IMG/VR virus record: IMGVR_UViG_3300027721_000083
Location: 1 to 22,359 of that record
Source of the DNA: a virus
DNA: 22,359 bases
Reading direction: 5' to 3' (one strand)
Below, in pieces: positions 2 through 18,158 of the stretch. Position 1 is the first letter of the stretch. Each line of letters begins with the position of its first letter. The position numbers were made by a program, and so were the translations under genes. Below the pieces are notes generated by a model. That model saw only the letters and a program-made list of their open reading frames with translations. It had not been told where the DNA came from and did not search any database.

Positions 2-210
2 GGAACTCAGGGTCTTACGGGTGCACAAGGTATTGCCGGATCGAATGGTTTGAATGGTGCACAAGGTATTGCCGGATCGAATGGTTCGAATGGTGCACAA
101 GGTATTGCCGGATCCAACGGTTCGAATGGATCGCAGGGTGCGCAGGGTGCTGTCGGATCCAACGGAACCAACGGATCGCAAGGCGCGACGGGTGCAACCG
201 GTCCATCGAC
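2..210 (+). repeat. Gly-X-Y coding repeat with near-perfect 36-nt tandem units
   Basis: Three 36-nt units at 21-56, 57-92 and 93-128 are almost identical and encode GAQGIAGSNGSN-like dodecapeptides. They are followed by less regular Gly-X-Y triplets. The high nucleotide identity contrasts with the larger collagen genes in this window and points to recent expansion. Confidence 0.9.
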
Positions 211-661
211 CGCAATCAATGCTTCCGCATATTCGTCGGGAACGCACTATCCGGTCATGGTCGCAGGAACGGGTACCAACCAGACTCCTCGCGCATGTAC
301 CTCCATCTTCTACTACTCAGCCGGTACCACATACTCGACCGACTTTGCCGCAACCTCGGATGCTCGCCTCAAGACCGTTCTAGGATTCGTGGATGGCGCA
401 GTCGAGATTGTCGAGCAGTTGAACGGTATCAAGTACGTCTGGAATGACCTCGCAGCAAATCTAGGCTACGAGAGCAGTCATCCGGGTGGAGTTGAACTCG
501 GTGTCCTCGCGCAAGAAGTCGAGGCTGTATTGCCAGAAGCAGTCTATAAGGACGATAAGGATTATCTCCATGTCTCCTATGACAAGTTGGTTCCTGTCCT
601 GATTGAAGCTATCAAGGAATTGAATGCTCGTATCAAGGTTCTGGAAGCGGCGAAGGAATAA
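2..661 (+). CDS. Collagen-like tail fibre protein with C-terminal peptidase_S74 chaperone (5' partial)
   Basis: The reading frame is open from base 2, so the start lies left of the window; an internal ATG at 50 falls within the collagen repeat and is not the true start. About 65 residues of Gly-X-Y repeat (GAQGIAGSNGSN-type units) are followed by a short linker and then a peptidase_S74 domain from about residue 119 of the visible part. The S74 marks are [19 protein letters not shown] and a closing helix rich in Leu, Glu and Lys ([20 protein letters not shown]). Known family members fold trimeric fibre tips and then cleave themselves at Ser-Asp; here that bond lies at about nt 358/359. The protein is inferred to be a trimeric receptor-binding fibre or adhesin. 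The next gene begins 3 nt after the stop. Which baseplate or fibre part it attaches to cannot be told, because its N-terminus is missing. Confidence 0.9.
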   Translation, partial: GTQGLTGAQGIAGSNGLNGAQGIAGSNGSNGAQGIAGSNGSNGSQGAQGAVGSNGTNGSQGATGATGPSTAINASAYSSGTHYPVMVAGTGTNQTPRACTSIFYYSAGTTYSTDFAATSDARLKTVLGFVDGAVEIVEQLNGIKYVWNDLAANLGYESSHPGGVELGVLAQEVEAVLPEAVYKDDKDYLHVSYDKLVPVLIEAIKELNARIKVLEAAKE

Positions 662-664
662 TCC

Positions 665-1657
665 ATGGCAACGGTAGGCTCTAATCCAACTCTACTATCT
701 TCCGTGAAGTCCGTCTTTGGCGGCGCAGCCACCATGCTCGGATACTATCGCGGTGGAAGCAATGTGAAGAACATTGCTAACGCATATCCTAGTGTTGCGC
801 AGTCTGGAACACTCAGCCTATTGTCGTTTGCGGGTGTGATCAATCCGACTACGTTCCTTACTGCTAATACGGACGCATCAGATTCTCAGAACGATGGATC
901 CGGAGCAGATGCGGGGATTTATGCGGGTAATGAGTACGGAAGTAACATACTTCATACTCCCAATGGTGGTAATCCCACATGGCTATTGGCGGGAAATCGT
1001 GGTGACTATGAGATTCAATTGACAAAAACTTCTGGAACCACTCCTACCGGAAGTGCTGTCAATACATGGTTCAATATGGGCAGCACTGGCATTACGTGGT
1101 ATCTCTCTCAGACACCAAATAACGGCAGTAAGACCTTCTATGGGCAATTGAAGATTCGTATGTCAGCCTCGCCACAGACGATTCTGAATACCGCAGGCGT
1201 GTATCTATACGTCTTCGCAGCATCAAACCAGTGTCCTCAGTGCTGCTTCACGCCAGATACGCTTATCTCCATGGGCGATGGAACGACCAGAGCAATCGCA
1301 ATGGTCATGGTTGGCGACGAGATTCTCGTTCGCGGCGGAACGAAGCGAGTCACGGAAGTCATCACTCGGACGAATCGCGTCATGTACCAGATTCAGTTCG
1401 CAGATGGTCGCGTCCTCAATGCCTCGGAAGACCACCCTCTATACGTGGTGGACAAGGGTTACGCAGCCATCAACCCCGGTGTCGGTGGAGACTACAAGGA
1501 CTTGGGTATTCCGGATCAGTTGTACGTGGGCGACCTTGTACTCGACTCGGAAGGCAGAGAGAATCAGATTGTCGATATCATTGACCTTGACTATCCAGAA
1601 ACGGTCTACACCTTTGCAGAATCGGAGTTCTACGCGAACGGAATGCTCGTCTACTAA
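665..1657 (+). CDS. Tail-fibre-associated structural protein with C-terminal Hint (hedgehog/intein) domain
   Basis: 330 residues. Residues 1-60 resemble a diverged copy of the IQTEFGGSNP fibre N-terminus (SVFGGAA...GYYRGGSNV...SFAGV). Residues about 105-186 form a beta domain (TWLLAG...AVNTWFNMGS...KIRMSAS) that matches the protein at 13572-14099. From Cys194 a Hint domain begins. Block A reads CFTPDTLISMGDGTT; the block B-like segment is NASEDHPLYV, with His257 and Ser in place of the usual Thr254; the block F-like end is FYANGMLVY, followed directly by the stop. Canonical inteins end in His-Asn and continue into a C-extein; both are absent. Splicing is therefore unlikely, but N-terminal thioester formation and cleavage at Cys194 remain possible. 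CPQCC (190-194) places two further Cys beside the nucleophile. An AAGGA lies about 8 nt upstream of the ATG. A structural role is inferred; no function is proven. Confidence 0.85.
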   Translation: MATVGSNPTLLSSVKSVFGGAATMLGYYRGGSNVKNIANAYPSVAQSGTLSLLSFAGVINPTTFLTANTDASDSQNDGSGADAGIYAGNEYGSNILHTPNGGNPTWLLAGNRGDYEIQLTKTSGTTPTGSAVNTWFNMGSTGITWYLSQTPNNGSKTFYGQLKIRMSASPQTILNTAGVYLYVFAASNQCPQCCFTPDTLISMGDGTTRAIAMVMVGDEILVRGGTKRVTEVITRTNRVMYQIQFADGRVLNASEDHPLYVVDKGYAAINPGVGGDYKDLGIPDQLYVGDLVLDSEGRENQIVDIIDLDYPETVYTFAESEFYANGMLVY

Positions 1658-1692: not shown

Positions 1693-2022
1693 ATGTACGC
1701 AGAACTTACCATTGATCAGGGCGCGACTTTCTCCTCGGTCATCAATCTAACGAACGACGACAATTCGGTGATTGATATCACCAATTCCACGTTCTCAGCC
1801 GAAATTCGCAAGTCGTATTACTCGACCAATGCGACAGCCATCATTACCGTGACCAAAGAAGACGCTGCCAACGGCATCGTTCGGCTCGCCATCCCTGCGG
1901 CTAACACAGCCAACATCAAGCCGGGACGCTATCTCTACGACCTCAAGATGACCGATGTATCCAATGTGACTGTGCGCGTCATTGAAGGCATTGTGACGAT
2001 TACGCCACAGGTCACTAGATGA
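1693..2022 (+). CDS. Small beta-rich phage structural protein (BppU N-terminal-like)
   Basis: 109 residues, soluble, with no signal peptide or membrane segment. The pattern fits an all-beta sandwich: an initial 'LTIDQGATFSSVINLTNDD' strand pair, an 'AEIRKSYYS' strand, 'GIVRLAI', 'IKPGRYLYDLKM' and a closing 'RVIEGIVTITPQVTR'. This layout resembles the N-terminal Ig-like domain of siphophage upper-baseplate proteins (BppU) and small proteins encoded beside collagen-like fibres in T4-like phages; the likeness is from memory, not a search. AGAGGA sits 6 nt before the ATG. The stop overlaps the next start as ATGA, so it is probably co-translated with the 1200-residue collagen-like protein and may be its adaptor or anchor. 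That role is inferred. Confidence 0.75.
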   Translation: MYAELTIDQGATFSSVINLTNDDNSVIDITNSTFSAEIRKSYYSTNATAIITVTKEDAANGIVRLAIPAANTANIKPGRYLYDLKMTDVSNVTVRVIEGIVTITPQVTR

Positions 2023-13571: not shown

Positions 13572-14099
13572 ATGGCACTTCCGACTTCCGTACTTGGCAT
13601 GGGCGCAATTCAGACAGAGTTTGGTGGTTCAAACCCAATCGCGCTGTCTGAATACTATGGCGTGAATGCCAATGTCGCAAGTTCGGGACAGATTCGAATG
13701 GCGCAGTTCCTAGGAATCTCAAACGCTCCTGTTGTTACGTTGCCTGCGAATACTGCTATTGCGGCAATAGACGTATACCCTGCTACATCCAACGCATACA
13801 TAAGGTTTACGTCTGCGGGAGGATATCAGGGTTCCGGTTTTGCCTCTGGAACTTGGTTGACTTCTGGTTCTGCTTCGCAGGTAGATATTCACCTAAGATA
13901 TTCCAGTGGAAGTCACAATCCTTCCGGAGATGCGGTGAACTCATGGTTGAACCTTGGAACGTCGCGCCAATGGCAGTTGCTCAATCCAACAGACCAGACA
14001 ATCAGAACCTCTAATATGATTCTCACATTGAGAGATGCTAGCACGTTGTCCAATTTGATATCGCGTACTGTGACCTTCTATTCTGAGAATGAGAAGTAA
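13572..14099 (+). CDS. Tail-fibre-associated beta protein, IQTEFGGSNP family
   Basis: 175 residues. Residues 1-55 carry the widespread phage fibre N-terminus: 'IQTEFGGSNPIALSEYYG', then 'SSGQIRMAQFLGIS'. Residues about 94-171 form a beta domain (TWLTSG...AVNSWLNLGTSRQW...LTLRDAS...TVTFYSE) clearly related to residues 105-186 of the Hint protein at 665-1657. Here the chain stops at the end of that domain, where the Hint domain begins in the paralogue. It starts 2 nt after the previous stop and is followed 2 nt later by a sulfotransferase-like gene. It is probably a virion protein attached to the fibre or baseplate network; exact position and ligand are unknown. There is no enzymatic motif. Confidence 0.8.
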   Translation: MALPTSVLGMGAIQTEFGGSNPIALSEYYGVNANVASSGQIRMAQFLGISNAPVVTLPANTAIAAIDVYPATSNAYIRFTSAGGYQGSGFASGTWLTSGSASQVDIHLRYSSGSHNPSGDAVNSWLNLGTSRQWQLLNPTDQTIRTSNMILTLRDASTLSNLISRTVTFYSENEK

Positions 14100-14101
14100 C
14101 C

Positions 14102-14680
14102 ATGCTGCTGTGTAAATCTCTGAAAATTCTAGTCTTACTGAATCCGAAAACTGGCTCACAGTCGCTACGGCAGTTGATGGTGTATTTGAATTCGACTCGC
14201 AGCATCTTCACGGTGTCTGAAATCGGATTGCGGAATAGCCGCATGTCTCGGTTTTCGGCATACTTTCCAAACGAAGACCTGACAGGATATCGCATTTTTG
14301 CTTTCTATCGTGACCCGCTTGAACGCTTTCTTTCCGGTATGGAACACCATCAGACGAAATTTCCGGTTGAGTTTCCGAGAACCATGAGCGTATCCGAATA
14401 CCTGAATGCGTGTGGTGGCTTCACTCCACAGGTTCTACATCTGAATCCCGAAGGATATACTCTGGAACTCTTCAACTTTGAGGACTTCAACAATGAGGTA
14501 GTGCGCATGGCAGCGGAGTTCGGCTATACCATCAACGCTGCGCAAGTGCCTAAAATCAATGAGAGTGCCAATCGCAAACGGCGTTCGGATTTGACTGCGC
14601 AGGAGATTCAACTAATCAGGAATCACTATGACGCTGATTATCAATTCTTCGCAAGCAAGGGCATCACGTTTCCTATCTAA
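14102..14680 (+). CDS. Sulfotransferase-family protein (PAPS-dependent, putative) 1
   Basis: 192 residues. The 5'-phosphosulfate-binding loop is visible as NPKTGSQSLRQLM (residues 14-26), at the end of a first hydrophobic strand (LKILVLL). The 3'-phosphate-binding segment is FYRDPLERFLSG, with Arg70 and Ser78 in the family spacing. The C-terminal part (ANRKRRSDLTAQEIQLIRN, then YDADYQFFASKGI) matches the usual end of carbohydrate sulfotransferases, where a helix and 'Y..D...F' close the fold. It is shorter than most cellular members and has no signal or transmembrane anchor, so it would act in the infected cytoplasm using host PAPS. The acceptor is unknown: host glycan, capsule or LPS precursor, or a virion protein. 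The gene begins 2 nt after an IQTEFGGSNP structural protein. Kinase-like or nucleotide-binding alternatives fit less well, because the loop lacks a Walker GxxxxGK[ST]. Confidence 0.8.
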   Translation: MLLCKSLKILVLLNPKTGSQSLRQLMVYLNSTRSIFTVSEIGLRNSRMSRFSAYFPNEDLTGYRIFAFYRDPLERFLSGMEHHQTKFPVEFPRTMSVSEYLNACGGFTPQVLHLNPEGYTLELFNFEDFNNEVVRMAAEFGYTINAAQVPKINESANRKRRSDLTAQEIQLIRNHYDADYQFFASKGITFPI

Positions 14681-15963: not shown

Positions 15964-17457
15964 ATGCCAGTTCCTACCTATCCTAGCGCAATCACGCTGA
16001 CCGATATTCAGACCGAATTCGGCGGCAGCAATCCGGCATCCCTGAACGAATACTACTCGGGTGGAACCTATGTCAGCAGTGGCATTGCGAACTCCACCGG
16101 CACGGTCATTCCTACGAGCGGCGCAATCAACTTCCTGAACTTCTCAGGTGCGGTTTCGTTTCCGGTTGACCCAACACAGCCTACAATACTAGACCACTGG
16201 CACGGTAAGTGGAGTTGGAATAACGAGTTGATGTATGATATGTTTGTGAGTAATAAAACAGGTCACATCTACGCTAGGTCGGTCAGCGCAAACGGCTTCT
16301 GGTGTCTGGATGGGTCGGGCGCAAAGGTGTTCGCGAACAATTATACTTCTCAGCAATATAGGTGGGCTACGTCTCAAAAAAATCCATATTACATCTACTG
16401 GAACAGTGGGAGTGGAGTCACGCTGCGTATTGGAAAATCCTCTAACACCGGAGTCATAGTAAAGCAATCCAACATCAATTGGGGAGCAGGCAATACTTCG
16501 GCTTACCCTTGGTCATTAGCACCAATATCCGGAACATCCAATGCGACCACCTCCGTATTCGGTGTATTCTCAAACAGTACCAATCTCGCTGCTGCCACAG
16601 GCACCATCTGTAAAATCAACGCGACGGATATGGTTACGGTTGAGTGGGCAAAGACAACCTCGGTCAGTGCCTCTGATTTAACATCCAATATTAGACCGAC
16701 TTTTATCTTTGCCACAGGCGATGAGAGTCAGGTGATTGTTTCCGGTGCGAGAGGTACGAGCAATACCGTAGTGTTGGTTCTAGCCGCATCATCCGGAGCC
16801 ACAGTACAGAGTTGGCAGACCGCGCCCCAGTATACTATGTTGCGCAAGCCAACGGCGGCTAACAATATCGCATTACAAAATACCTTTATGCTCAATTTGA
16901 AATCCAACACCGGAGCAAATGTTGCTAATCTATACATTTCCAATACATCGTGGAAATCAACCGGCGCGATTTATGGCTATGACGTAGACTACGATTCCAA
17001 CATCTATTGCGCGGGTCGTAGAGTAGTAGGTGGCGGAGGCGCATATGAAGTTATGGTTGCGAAGTACAACACTTCTGGAACTCGACAGTGGCAAGTAAAG
17101 ATTGCGCCTACGAACTCAGCGAATGGTTTGTTGGTTAACGGTTTCGCTGCCACCAATAATAGAGTTATCCTTCAACTAGAGGAATTCACTGAAACTTTTG
17201 ATGGTAAGAAGTGGTATACGAGTAGTTATGGTGTGGTTAGGTATGTAAGTATCGACGCGGCATCCGGAAATACCGGAACCATTGGTGAGTATACCGTCAC
17301 AACCGATACTACGAGCGTTTGGTCTGCGGGAACCGGAAACACTGGATTGTGGGCATATACGTACAGTCCAAGAGACACTTACGACTTTACACTGGCAGCT
17401 AATACCCTTGGCGGCGGAACCGCTAATGCGGGAACCTTCACGGCGACAGCACTATGA
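15964..17457 (+). CDS. IQTEFGGSNP-family structural protein with putative beta-propeller adhesin domain
   Basis: 497 residues. Residues 10-62 carry the phage fibre N-terminus (IQTEFGGSNPASLNEYYSGG...PTSGAINFLNFSGA), shared with 13572-14099. The remainder is all-beta and rich in Ser, Thr, Asn and aromatic residues. The segment at about 337-381 (DVDYDSNIYCAGRRV, then MVAKYNTSGTRQWQVKI) resembles one blade of an SBBP-type beta-propeller. Earlier parts (KTGHIYARSVSANGFWCLDG, about 95-115) could be diverged blades. It begins 1 nt after an S74 fibre and overlaps a sulfotransferase-like gene by 4 nt (ATGA). A receptor-binding or glycan-binding tip is inferred. The blade count cannot be fixed by eye, so the propeller call is tentative, while the fibre N-terminus is secure. 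Confidence 0.78.
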   Translation: MPVPTYPSAITLTDIQTEFGGSNPASLNEYYSGGTYVSSGIANSTGTVIPTSGAINFLNFSGAVSFPVDPTQPTILDHWHGKWSWNNELMYDMFVSNKTGHIYARSVSANGFWCLDGSGAKVFANNYTSQQYRWATSQKNPYYIYWNSGSGVTLRIGKSSNTGVIVKQSNINWGAGNTSAYPWSLAPISGTSNATTSVFGVFSNSTNLAAATGTICKINATDMVTVEWAKTTSVSASDLTSNIRPTFIFATGDESQVIVSGARGTSNTVVLVLAASSGATVQSWQTAPQYTMLRKPTAANNIALQNTFMLNLKSNTGANVANLYISNTSWKSTGAIYGYDVDYDSNIYCAGRRVVGGGGAYEVMVAKYNTSGTRQWQVKIAPTNSANGLLVNGFAATNNRVILQLEEFTETFDGKKWYTSSYGVVRYVSIDAASGNTGTIGEYTVTTDTTSVWSAGTGNTGLWAYTYSPRDTYDFTLAANTLGGGTANAGTFTATAL

Positions 17458-18158
17458 TAATTTCACCAGACAAAACCAAGGTCTTCCTTGCTGTTACCAA
17501 GAACGGCTCAACCACTGTGGAGCATCTGTTGTCTCAGATTCCCGGTGTCATTCATCTGAACGACATGAAGGTAAGGCACGGAAATCGCTGCGACCTTCAA
17601 TCTCAGACAGAACAAAATCCCCTGTTAGCGGGTATGGATGCTTGGGCAGTCGAGTGCTATGCGTTCATCCGTAACCCCGCAGACCGCTTCTTCTCAGCCT
17701 GTAACTACCTCAAGCGATTCCCGTATGCGCTCGTCAACCTGTTTCCAGAGAAATTCTCCATCGAAGAGTTTGCCATTCCTGCTAATGATTATCAGCGCAG
17801 ATGGACTCTAGCCGAATGGTTTTCTATGCCACTGGCTCTCAGGGTGAGAATTCGCAATCTGACCGTAGAGGATTTTCTGAGCATTCCCCAATATCGACTC
17901 GGCTACGTCATGCGCGAACAGTGGCACTGGTTTGAGTCGGGAACAACAGGACTTCGCTATGACGACTTCCAGAACGAGACTCGCAGGCTAATTGGACTCT
18001 TCGGCGGCGATACGACGGTAAACATTCCAAACCTGAATGCTGCGGACGATTTTCCGACAGCCACACCATACGTCAAAACTCACGACATTTACATGGAAAT
18101 GCACCGTCGATATGAGCTAGATTATCGACTATTAGAAGCATACGGCATAGACCACTAA
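17454..18158 (+). CDS. Sulfotransferase-family protein (PAPS-dependent, putative) 2
   Basis: 234 residues. The phosphosulfate loop is VTKNGSTTVEHLL (about 14-26) after the strand KVFLA. The 3'-phosphate motif is FIRNPADRFFSACNYLKRF, with Arg73 and Ser81 at the same 8-residue spacing as in the first sulfotransferase. A middle region with YRLGYVMREQWHWF and LRYDDFQNETRRL recalls the family's acceptor-side loops and 'yE.L..d' strand; the end (RRYELDYRLLEAYGI) matches the closing 'Y..D...l..yG' pattern. It has no signal peptide or membrane anchor and is predicted cytoplasmic. Outside the two PAPS motifs it shows little similarity to the protein at 14102, so recent duplication is unlikely. Its start overlaps the stop of the IQTEFGGSNP/propeller protein (ATGA), which implies coupled translation. 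The acceptor is unknown. Confidence 0.75.
   Translation: MIISPDKTKVFLAVTKNGSTTVEHLLSQIPGVIHLNDMKVRHGNRCDLQSQTEQNPLLAGMDAWAVECYAFIRNPADRFFSACNYLKRFPYALVNLFPEKFSIEEFAIPANDYQRRWTLAEWFSMPLALRVRIRNLTVEDFLSIPQYRLGYVMREQWHWFESGTTGLRYDDFQNETRRLIGLFGGDTTVNIPNLNAADDFPTATPYVKTHDIYMEMHRRYELDYRLLEAYGIDH

Follow-up and report, generated by a model that had tools for sequence, protein, structure and literature searches.

Hint domains are known as inteins, as the processors of hedgehog proteins and as the releasers of bacterial toxins. Hog domains have an Asp/His that activates cholesterol. In the Hog family, a sterol- or adduct-recognition region lies behind the Hint domain, as described in an excerpt of PMC2362128. 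Two types of BIL domains are distinguished in the available part of PMC7765530: A-type BILs, which carry a conserved His-Asn at the C-terminal end, and B-type BILs, which have the intein motifs minus the C-terminal one and undergo cleavage on the N-terminal side. The BIL2 domain of Tetrahymena thermophila BUBL1 forms an isopeptide with lysine, by which its N-terminal part is conjugated to other proteins, according to passages of PMC8616854. In phages, the parts of PMC3556154, PMC5259590, PMC6753286, PMC8790156 and PMC5526547 that were available place Hint domains in terminase, reductase or helicase, and a search of open-licence PMC articles found no paper claiming a Hint domain in phage tail or virion proteins.

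The stretch of DNA analyzed here (the window) is a virus record of 22,359 bases. It contains a tail-fibre cluster of the collagen-like type and, according to PHROG matches to head-tail adaptor, head closure and tail sheath stabilizer, neck genes that are T4-like. A protein of the tail cluster carries a C-terminal Hint domain, and the ORF ahead of its gene encodes an S74- and collagen-type fibre (Table 1). A longer version of this fibre gene is present in contig L001, which is the window virus or a near copy (100 percent) and represents the window rather than an independent sample. As to fibre identity of upstream genes in other contigs, an S74 match was found upstream in L023, not directly adjacent to the Hint gene, and the upstream genes of L013 and L029 gave no family match. 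ORFs resembling the gene downstream of the Hint gene also come after it in L002/L007 and L003/L008. Sulfotransferase genes were observed in the tail-fibre cluster of the window at 14102-14680 (PF03567, 1.2e-8) and 17454-18158 (a weak match, 0.056), and galactose-3-O-sulfotransferase PHROG 3347 was also matched in this cluster; by eye, similar ORFs adjoin the Hint gene in L012/L099 (L012 1963-2550) and lie near it in L031 (631-1131).

Table 1. Positions in the window of the Hint-bearing ORF, its parts and related genes
Feature	Position	Strand	Remark
Upstream fibre gene end	50..661	+	Collagen-like repeats, S74 chaperone; 4 bases ahead of Hint gene
Tail-cluster protein, C-terminal Hint domain	665..1657	+	330 aa, TAA stop
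N-terminal part, residues 1-189	665..1231	+	'SxxxxFGG..' start, then beta-rich domain; also in the Hint-less paralogue
Junction Cys190-Pro-Gln-Cys193-Cys194	1232..1246	+	Residue -1 is Cys193; Hint residue 1 is Cys194
Hint domain, residues 194-330, 137 aa	1244..1654	+	Endonuclease insert absent
Block B S-E-D-H (Ser254, His257)	1424..1435	+	
Tyr-Lys-Asp, residues 277-279	1493..1501	+	Between blocks B and F; Tyr in 31/31
Block F-like FYANGMLVY and stop	1628..1657	+	Tyr330 in the intein penultimate His place; stop in the Asn place
Downstream gene	1693..2022	+	PHROG 1084 (unknown function)
Paralogue of N-terminal part, Hint-less	13572..14099	+	Ends just ahead of the place of the Cys junction
Codon of Cys190	1232-1234		
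Codon of Cys193	1241-1243		
Codon of Cys194	1244-1246		
Codon of Ser254	1424-1426		
Codon of His257	1433-1435		
Codon of Tyr330	1652-1654		
Stop codon TAA	1655-1657		

The presence of a Hint domain at residues 194-330 is well beyond chance. An AlphaFold model of the domain (31 sequences; pLDDT 91.9, pTM 0.86) had a complete Hint fold and matched known Hint structures over its whole length, the comparison by which the original prediction had proposed to check itself. The best likeness was to the BIL2 domain of BUBL1 (Z 21.3), with 6y75 superposed at 1.7 A over 135 residues; the gp41-1 intein (Z 19.2) and hedgehog 1at0 (Z 16.5, 122 residues) were also found. Altogether, the fold search returned 89 chains at Z of at least 8, and those among the matches listed were Hint structures. 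The model of the full-length protein was poorer (pLDDT 71, pTM 0.47), with low confidence in the N-terminal half and at residues 187-190 of the junction.

Profiles gave evidence that was weak for the single protein and strong for the family. TIGR01445 (intein_Nterm) matched the Hint domain alone at 25.9 bits (cut-off 24.5), with profile position 1 at Cys194, and Pfam Hom_end_hint matched the protein from residue 194 at 4.3e-6, under the gathering score. A family profile of 31 relatives, searched against PDB, matched BIL2 of BUBL1 at 1.8e-18 and the gp41-1 intein at 3.8e-9. In addition, the Pfam AXH domain (Ataxin-1/HBP1 module) was detected on the Hints of L056 (residues 614-716, 43.2 bits) and L027 (residues 545-643, 33.8 bits), both above the curated cut-off (33), and Ataxin-1 structures appeared in the family-profile search at 3.6e-5; a remote link between AXH and Hint is possible.

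Structural alignment fixed the residue register. Cys194 (model residue 10) was aligned with residue 1 of the Mtu RecA intein and with hedgehog Cys258. Tyr330, the last model residue, was aligned with BIL2 142, gp41-1 124, Mtu RecA 439, Mxe GyrA 197 and Ssp DnaB 153, which we take to be the penultimate His residues, and it therefore occupies the penultimate-His place, with the stop codon in the place of Asn. In the BIL2 structure, N143 is mutated according to the title of the PDB entry. The fold, the register and the profiles together bear out the original prediction of a Hint domain with blocks A and B and a block F-like end, in which His-Asn is replaced by Tyr and a stop. Its start at 1241 was one residue early, as this is the codon of Cys193, and the domain begins with Cys194 at 1244.

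Relatives were collected in several scans. A first alignment scan, whose pattern included CCFTP, picked up 25 viral-contig loci and a single locus from a Desulfuromonadales MAG; because of this pattern, Cys conservation in that scan is biased. A scan with the Cys-free C-terminal half yielded 33 loci, all of them Cys-Cys members wherever the junction region was translated; L042 was read from an internal Met, and the same contig, fully read as L019, has Cys-Cys. The Cys-containing N-terminal half yielded 25 loci in the same contigs as the first scan, and all 25 contigs end in Tyr-stop. One pattern of the C-terminal-half scan held the final Tyr, and members caught by block B alone were likewise Tyr-ended. 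A third scan, with [NGR]F[YF]ANG[VIM][LM][VAT] as its sole pattern, was blind to Cys1, to residue -1 and to the last residue; it supplied the non-Tyr comparison set, and about 80 of 141 relatives were taken in. L155 and L162, in which the end motif is absent in frame, were left out, and L018 and L019 have their 5' ends cut off. Pooling of all scans gave 76 distinct Hint segments.

Among the matches listed, all 76 distinct segments retain both Cys1 and the block-B His, a loss of which had been named in the original prediction as evidence against it. In 31/31 distinct relatives, both junction cysteines (Cys193 and Cys194) are kept, together with the block-B His and the Tyr at the end. In the other 45 segments, the usual end is His-Asn or His-Ser, with further residues behind it. 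Again among the matches listed, a Cys at -1 occurs in every one of the 31 Tyr-ended Hints vs 1/45 others; block B reads Ser-x-x-His in 27/31 Tyr-ended segments and Thr-x-x-His in 44/45 others; and the block-F His is present in 1/31 vs 28/45. A further Cys was found at -4 in 22 of the 31 Tyr-ended segments and anywhere within 8 residues upstream in 28; the GGGG-CC members L055, L056 and L097 have no additional Cys within this distance. The Cys pair with the upstream CPxC, the missing block-F His, the family-wide terminal Tyr and the tail-hub case described below go beyond the original prediction.

The Hint reading frame is under purifying selection, with dN/dS of 0 to 0.22 among the 22 pairs listed (equal length, dS 0.05-2.5, 15 sequences). 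Two kinds of stop codon were used in 26 ORFs (22 TAA and 4 TGA). In the tree, 28 Tyr-stop rows formed one supported group (SH-aLRT 98), and three rows ending in Tyr-Asp-Glu-Gln/Glu-Lys (the L061-L064 group) fell outside this main clade, on open or weak forks. The Tyr-stop Hint thus appears to be a conserved domain, and not a broken intein. The co-occurrence of Cys -1 and a Tyr end (31/0 vs 1/44; Fisher, p 1.7e-20) is descriptive only, because few changes suffice on the tree (2 in the type of end, 3 at -1) and its starred branches contain just 1 independent pair; the coupling goes back to one or two origins and does not count as statistically independent evidence. The single exception with Cys at -1, L164, and the dropped L155 are ribonucleotide-reductase-type inteins by our own reading, and their -1 Cys appears to be a residue of the host protein. 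L155, which is ribonucleotide reductase-like, and L162 also resemble split inteins, in which the N-part ORF stops behind block B and the C-part (NFFANGILVHN or NFYANGVLVHN) lies in a separate ORF.

When the whole protein was compared by tblastn with 50,697 phage records, no match was found at 1e-5, and no close annotated cultured phage was identified; for more divergent members, the matches listed were limited to canonical inteins, Hints of pretoxins and genes that were hypothetical or had no annotation. BFVD matches included phage entries named 'Hint domain containing protein', some others being named collagen or fibronectin III proteins; these names look automatic. The Desulfuromonadales-MAG contig L031 (4548-5420) and two viral contigs (L013 5557-6420) carry almost identical Hint proteins, a possible pointer either to the host or to a phage contig in the MAG bin.

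The horseshoe fold over the whole domain, Cys at residue 1 and S254-x-x-H257 place the domain in the Hint superfamily. However, the defining features tested for class 1 inteins, A-type BILs and Hog domains fail, and the phage Hint therefore belongs to none of these classes. The penultimate His with terminal Asn and a C-extein with a nucleophilic +1 residue are absent; TIGR01445 matched 30/31 relatives, and TIGR01443 (intein_Cterm) matched 2/31 and gave no match to the window domain. In place of the His-Asn end of A-type BILs, the window has Tyr-stop and all relatives have Tyr (31/31). Nothing lies behind the Hint that could form a sterol- or adduct-recognition region, as the ORF ends at Tyr330.

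Compared with individual systems, the phage Hint resembles BIL2 (PDB 6y75, 6tmm) in fold, profile match, Cys1 and block-B His; however, BIL2 retains Asn143 at the C-terminal end and is, according to PMC8616854, flanked by two ubiquitin-like domains, whereas the phage Hint ends at Tyr in the penultimate place. With the C-terminal autoprocessing domain of hedgehog (1at0, 6tyy) it shares the fold, the alignment of Cys194 on Cys258 and the N-terminal half-reaction only, but it lacks the sterol-recognition region, and its N-terminal part is not a Hedge domain by Pfam. Bacteria would not be expected to provide a cholesterol acceptor. The motif set agrees with the description of B-type BILs, as intein motifs are present apart from the C-terminal one, and the phage Hint may be a B-type-BIL-like domain; B-type BILs are said to sit in variable regions of bacterial proteins, whereas the phage Hint sits on tail-type proteins and ends at Tyr. 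Pfam Hint_2, presumably related to B-type BILs, scored 15.9 bits against the window protein (cut-off 28.4). The A-type BIL or pretoxin Hints of prophage-like toxins (L090 and L091) have the same fold, Cys1 and block B, but they end in VLVHN and VWVHN and carry C-terminal effector-like parts. The HN-type phage Hints (L117-L138, except L128 and L131) are likewise located at or near the C-terminus of phage proteins; they end in His-Asn plus a tail and have no Cys at -1, in contrast to the Tyr-stop subclass. A Cys-Cys start combined with a Tyr-stop end is the signature of this distinct subclass.

Other arrangements were observed among the phage proteins. Two or more Hints look to be present in tandem in L061 (1465-3318), L064, L118 (1201-3465) and L108-L115, in which an earlier LLHN or LLVHN end precedes a second CF/CCF start. 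The Tyr-Asp-Glu-Gln/Glu-Lys ends of L061-L064 are like an intermediate between HN and Tyr-stop. C-terminal Hints ending in VHSE, VNSE or AHSE (Asn to Ser) were found in L139, L140, L143-L145, L150, L153, L154, L156, L158, L159, L163, L166, L168 and L169; of these, L144 has a tail-type 'SSGQIKMSEINTELG' start, as in the Hint proteins of L015-L030.

The N-terminal parts attached to the Tyr-stop Hint are diverse. They formed eight blastp clusters, one of which is merely a truncated row, leaving about seven kinds: the beta-rich domain family that includes the window protein (with L008 carrying glycine-rich domain PF21722), a family that looks Ig/BACON-like by our own reading, a subtilase (PF00082) family, an Asn-Tyr repeat protein and others. 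The clearest genomic context was that of L009, a siphophage tail cluster with tape measure, distal tail protein, the Hint-bearing protein, DUF6950 and tail fibre protein. The N-terminal part of the L009 protein is a lambda-gpL-like tail hub, with homologues in Roseobacter phage CRP-406 ('minor tail protein L') and in phiPSA1 (the tail protein), where the gene order is the same as in L009. The L009 Hint sits behind the natural hub C-terminus: the hubs of CRP-406, CRP-831 and phiPSA1 end at, or within about a dozen residues past, the Trp-Gly that precedes the L009 Hint linker. These hub ends and the Hint-less paralogue in the window indicate that the Hint was added behind complete structural proteins. 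Judged from these fusions, the Tyr-stop Hint appears to be an exchangeable cassette moved between unrelated phage tail proteins.

In the subtilase-family phage proteins L027 (4384-6429), L028 and L051, a protease (PF00082 1.4e-24; in L027 also PHROG 3677 protease) is fused to a C-terminal Tyr-stop Hint. In L127 (212-1417), a lambda gpI-like tail assembly protein (PHROG 32, 2.9e-25) has an HN-type Hint behind a C-terminal glycine stretch.

We propose that this Hint, like that of hedgehog or a B-type BIL, is trimmed to the first half-reaction, and that it is probably released from a tail-tip or fibre-associated protein by way of a Cys194 thioester. In this mechanism, Cys194 would attack the Cys193-Cys194 peptide bond, and an N-to-S acyl shift assisted by His257 would place the Cys193 carbonyl as a thioester on Cys194. 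A nucleophile (water, a thiol or an amine) would then resolve the thioester and remove the Hint from the C-terminus, leaving ...CPQC as the new C-terminus of the finished tail protein, in which Cys193 and the upstream Cys might serve as a disulfide gate or as a handle. The C-terminal cut would be impossible, because the block-F His, the penultimate His, Asn and the C-extein are all absent; the original prediction of a domain capable of thioester formation in principle but not of this cut is consistent with the residues kept and lost. The fold, the residue pattern, its conservation and its appended position are direct observations; from analogy with other Hint domains, we infer that acyl shift and cleavage may take place. 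Cleavage appears most likely given intact Cys1 and block-B His, the mostly absent C-terminal profile and the location of the Hint behind complete proteins. Against cleavage are the Ser for Thr substitution in block B of most Tyr-ended members and the possibility that Cys -1 could hold Cys194 in a disulfide instead.

If the thioester forms, it could also be passed to an amine or thiol on the host surface or on another virion protein, fixing the tail protein via its C-terminus in the way that BIL2 joins ubl4 to a lysine, which we regard as a tentative possibility. BIL2, the nearest solved fold, is reported in PMC8616854 to form isopeptides with Lys of ubl5 and Ras, so that the idea of ligation has a precedent and is not fanciful; however, the C-terminal Asn retained by BIL2 makes this parallel inexact. 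Hints on tail-tip proteins, namely the gpL-like hub (Tyr-stop) and the gpI-like tail assembly protein (HN), are in line with attachment, as is the position of Hint genes directly behind larger ORFs: in 16/34 rows, with the subtilase rows uncounted, the Hint gene lies -3 to +21 bases behind a larger or cut-off ORF. A conserved gene beside the Hint gene that would fit as a dedicated acceptor was looked for across genomes and was not found. Neighbours differ between genomes, so that no dedicated acceptor protein is visible. In addition, hydrolysis needs fewer assumptions, and, compared with ligation, release through water or a thiol is the simpler course. Self-release alone is no less likely than covalent attachment. 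A fuller version, in which an exchangeable Hint on tail- or fibre-tip proteins presents an activated ...CPxC thioester and hands the protein to an amine or thiol belonging to the host surface or to a neighbouring virion protein, with Cys -1 and Tyr-stop as coupled adaptations that would force the reaction forward and forbid splicing, is unlikely.

It is also unlikely that the Hint is an inactive fold, which stays on the tail protein uncleaved and serves for structure or binding. Every C-terminal catalytic position is gone, the block-B Thr is mostly Ser, and the invariant terminal Tyr could be a structural anchor. On the other hand, neither Cys1 nor the block-B His is ever lost among the matches listed, and the retention of Cys1 across very different N-terminal proteins disfavours a merely structural role, in which loss somewhere would be expected.

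A redox-gated cap, in which a C193-C194 or C190-C194 disulfide would block the acyl shift until a reducing environment is met, seems improbable. The strict occurrence of Cys -1 in Tyr-ended members and the frequent Cys -4 would fit such a gate, and the fold matches include 3nzm, a DnaE intein with its N-extein in a redox trap. However, this chemistry is a guess, the cytoplasm is reducing during assembly, and the GGGG-CC members do without an upstream Cys. Finally, it is very improbable that the Hint is what remains of an intein after loss of the C-extein. The Hint is homologous to inteins that phages carry in terminase, RNR, helicase and polymerase genes, but this reading is contradicted by the same truncation residue in all 28 distinct Tyr-stop members, the two kinds of stop codon, purifying selection on the frame and N-terminal parts that are complete tail proteins.

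Hint domains in phage proteins are known already, as are HN-ended C-terminal Hints including that of L127; what is new is best called a Tyr-stop, Cys-Cys Hint subclass on phage tail proteins. Its members are easy to find by the Tyr-stop and Cys-Cys signature. If active, the domain would be a small natural Hint limited to N-terminal cleavage, useful for the production of protein thioesters. The fact that the same trimmed domain ends several unrelated phage proteins suggests a phage-specific release or chemical attachment of tail parts, and an active domain would represent a new step in tail maturation, possibly a thioester-based covalent attachment of the tail.
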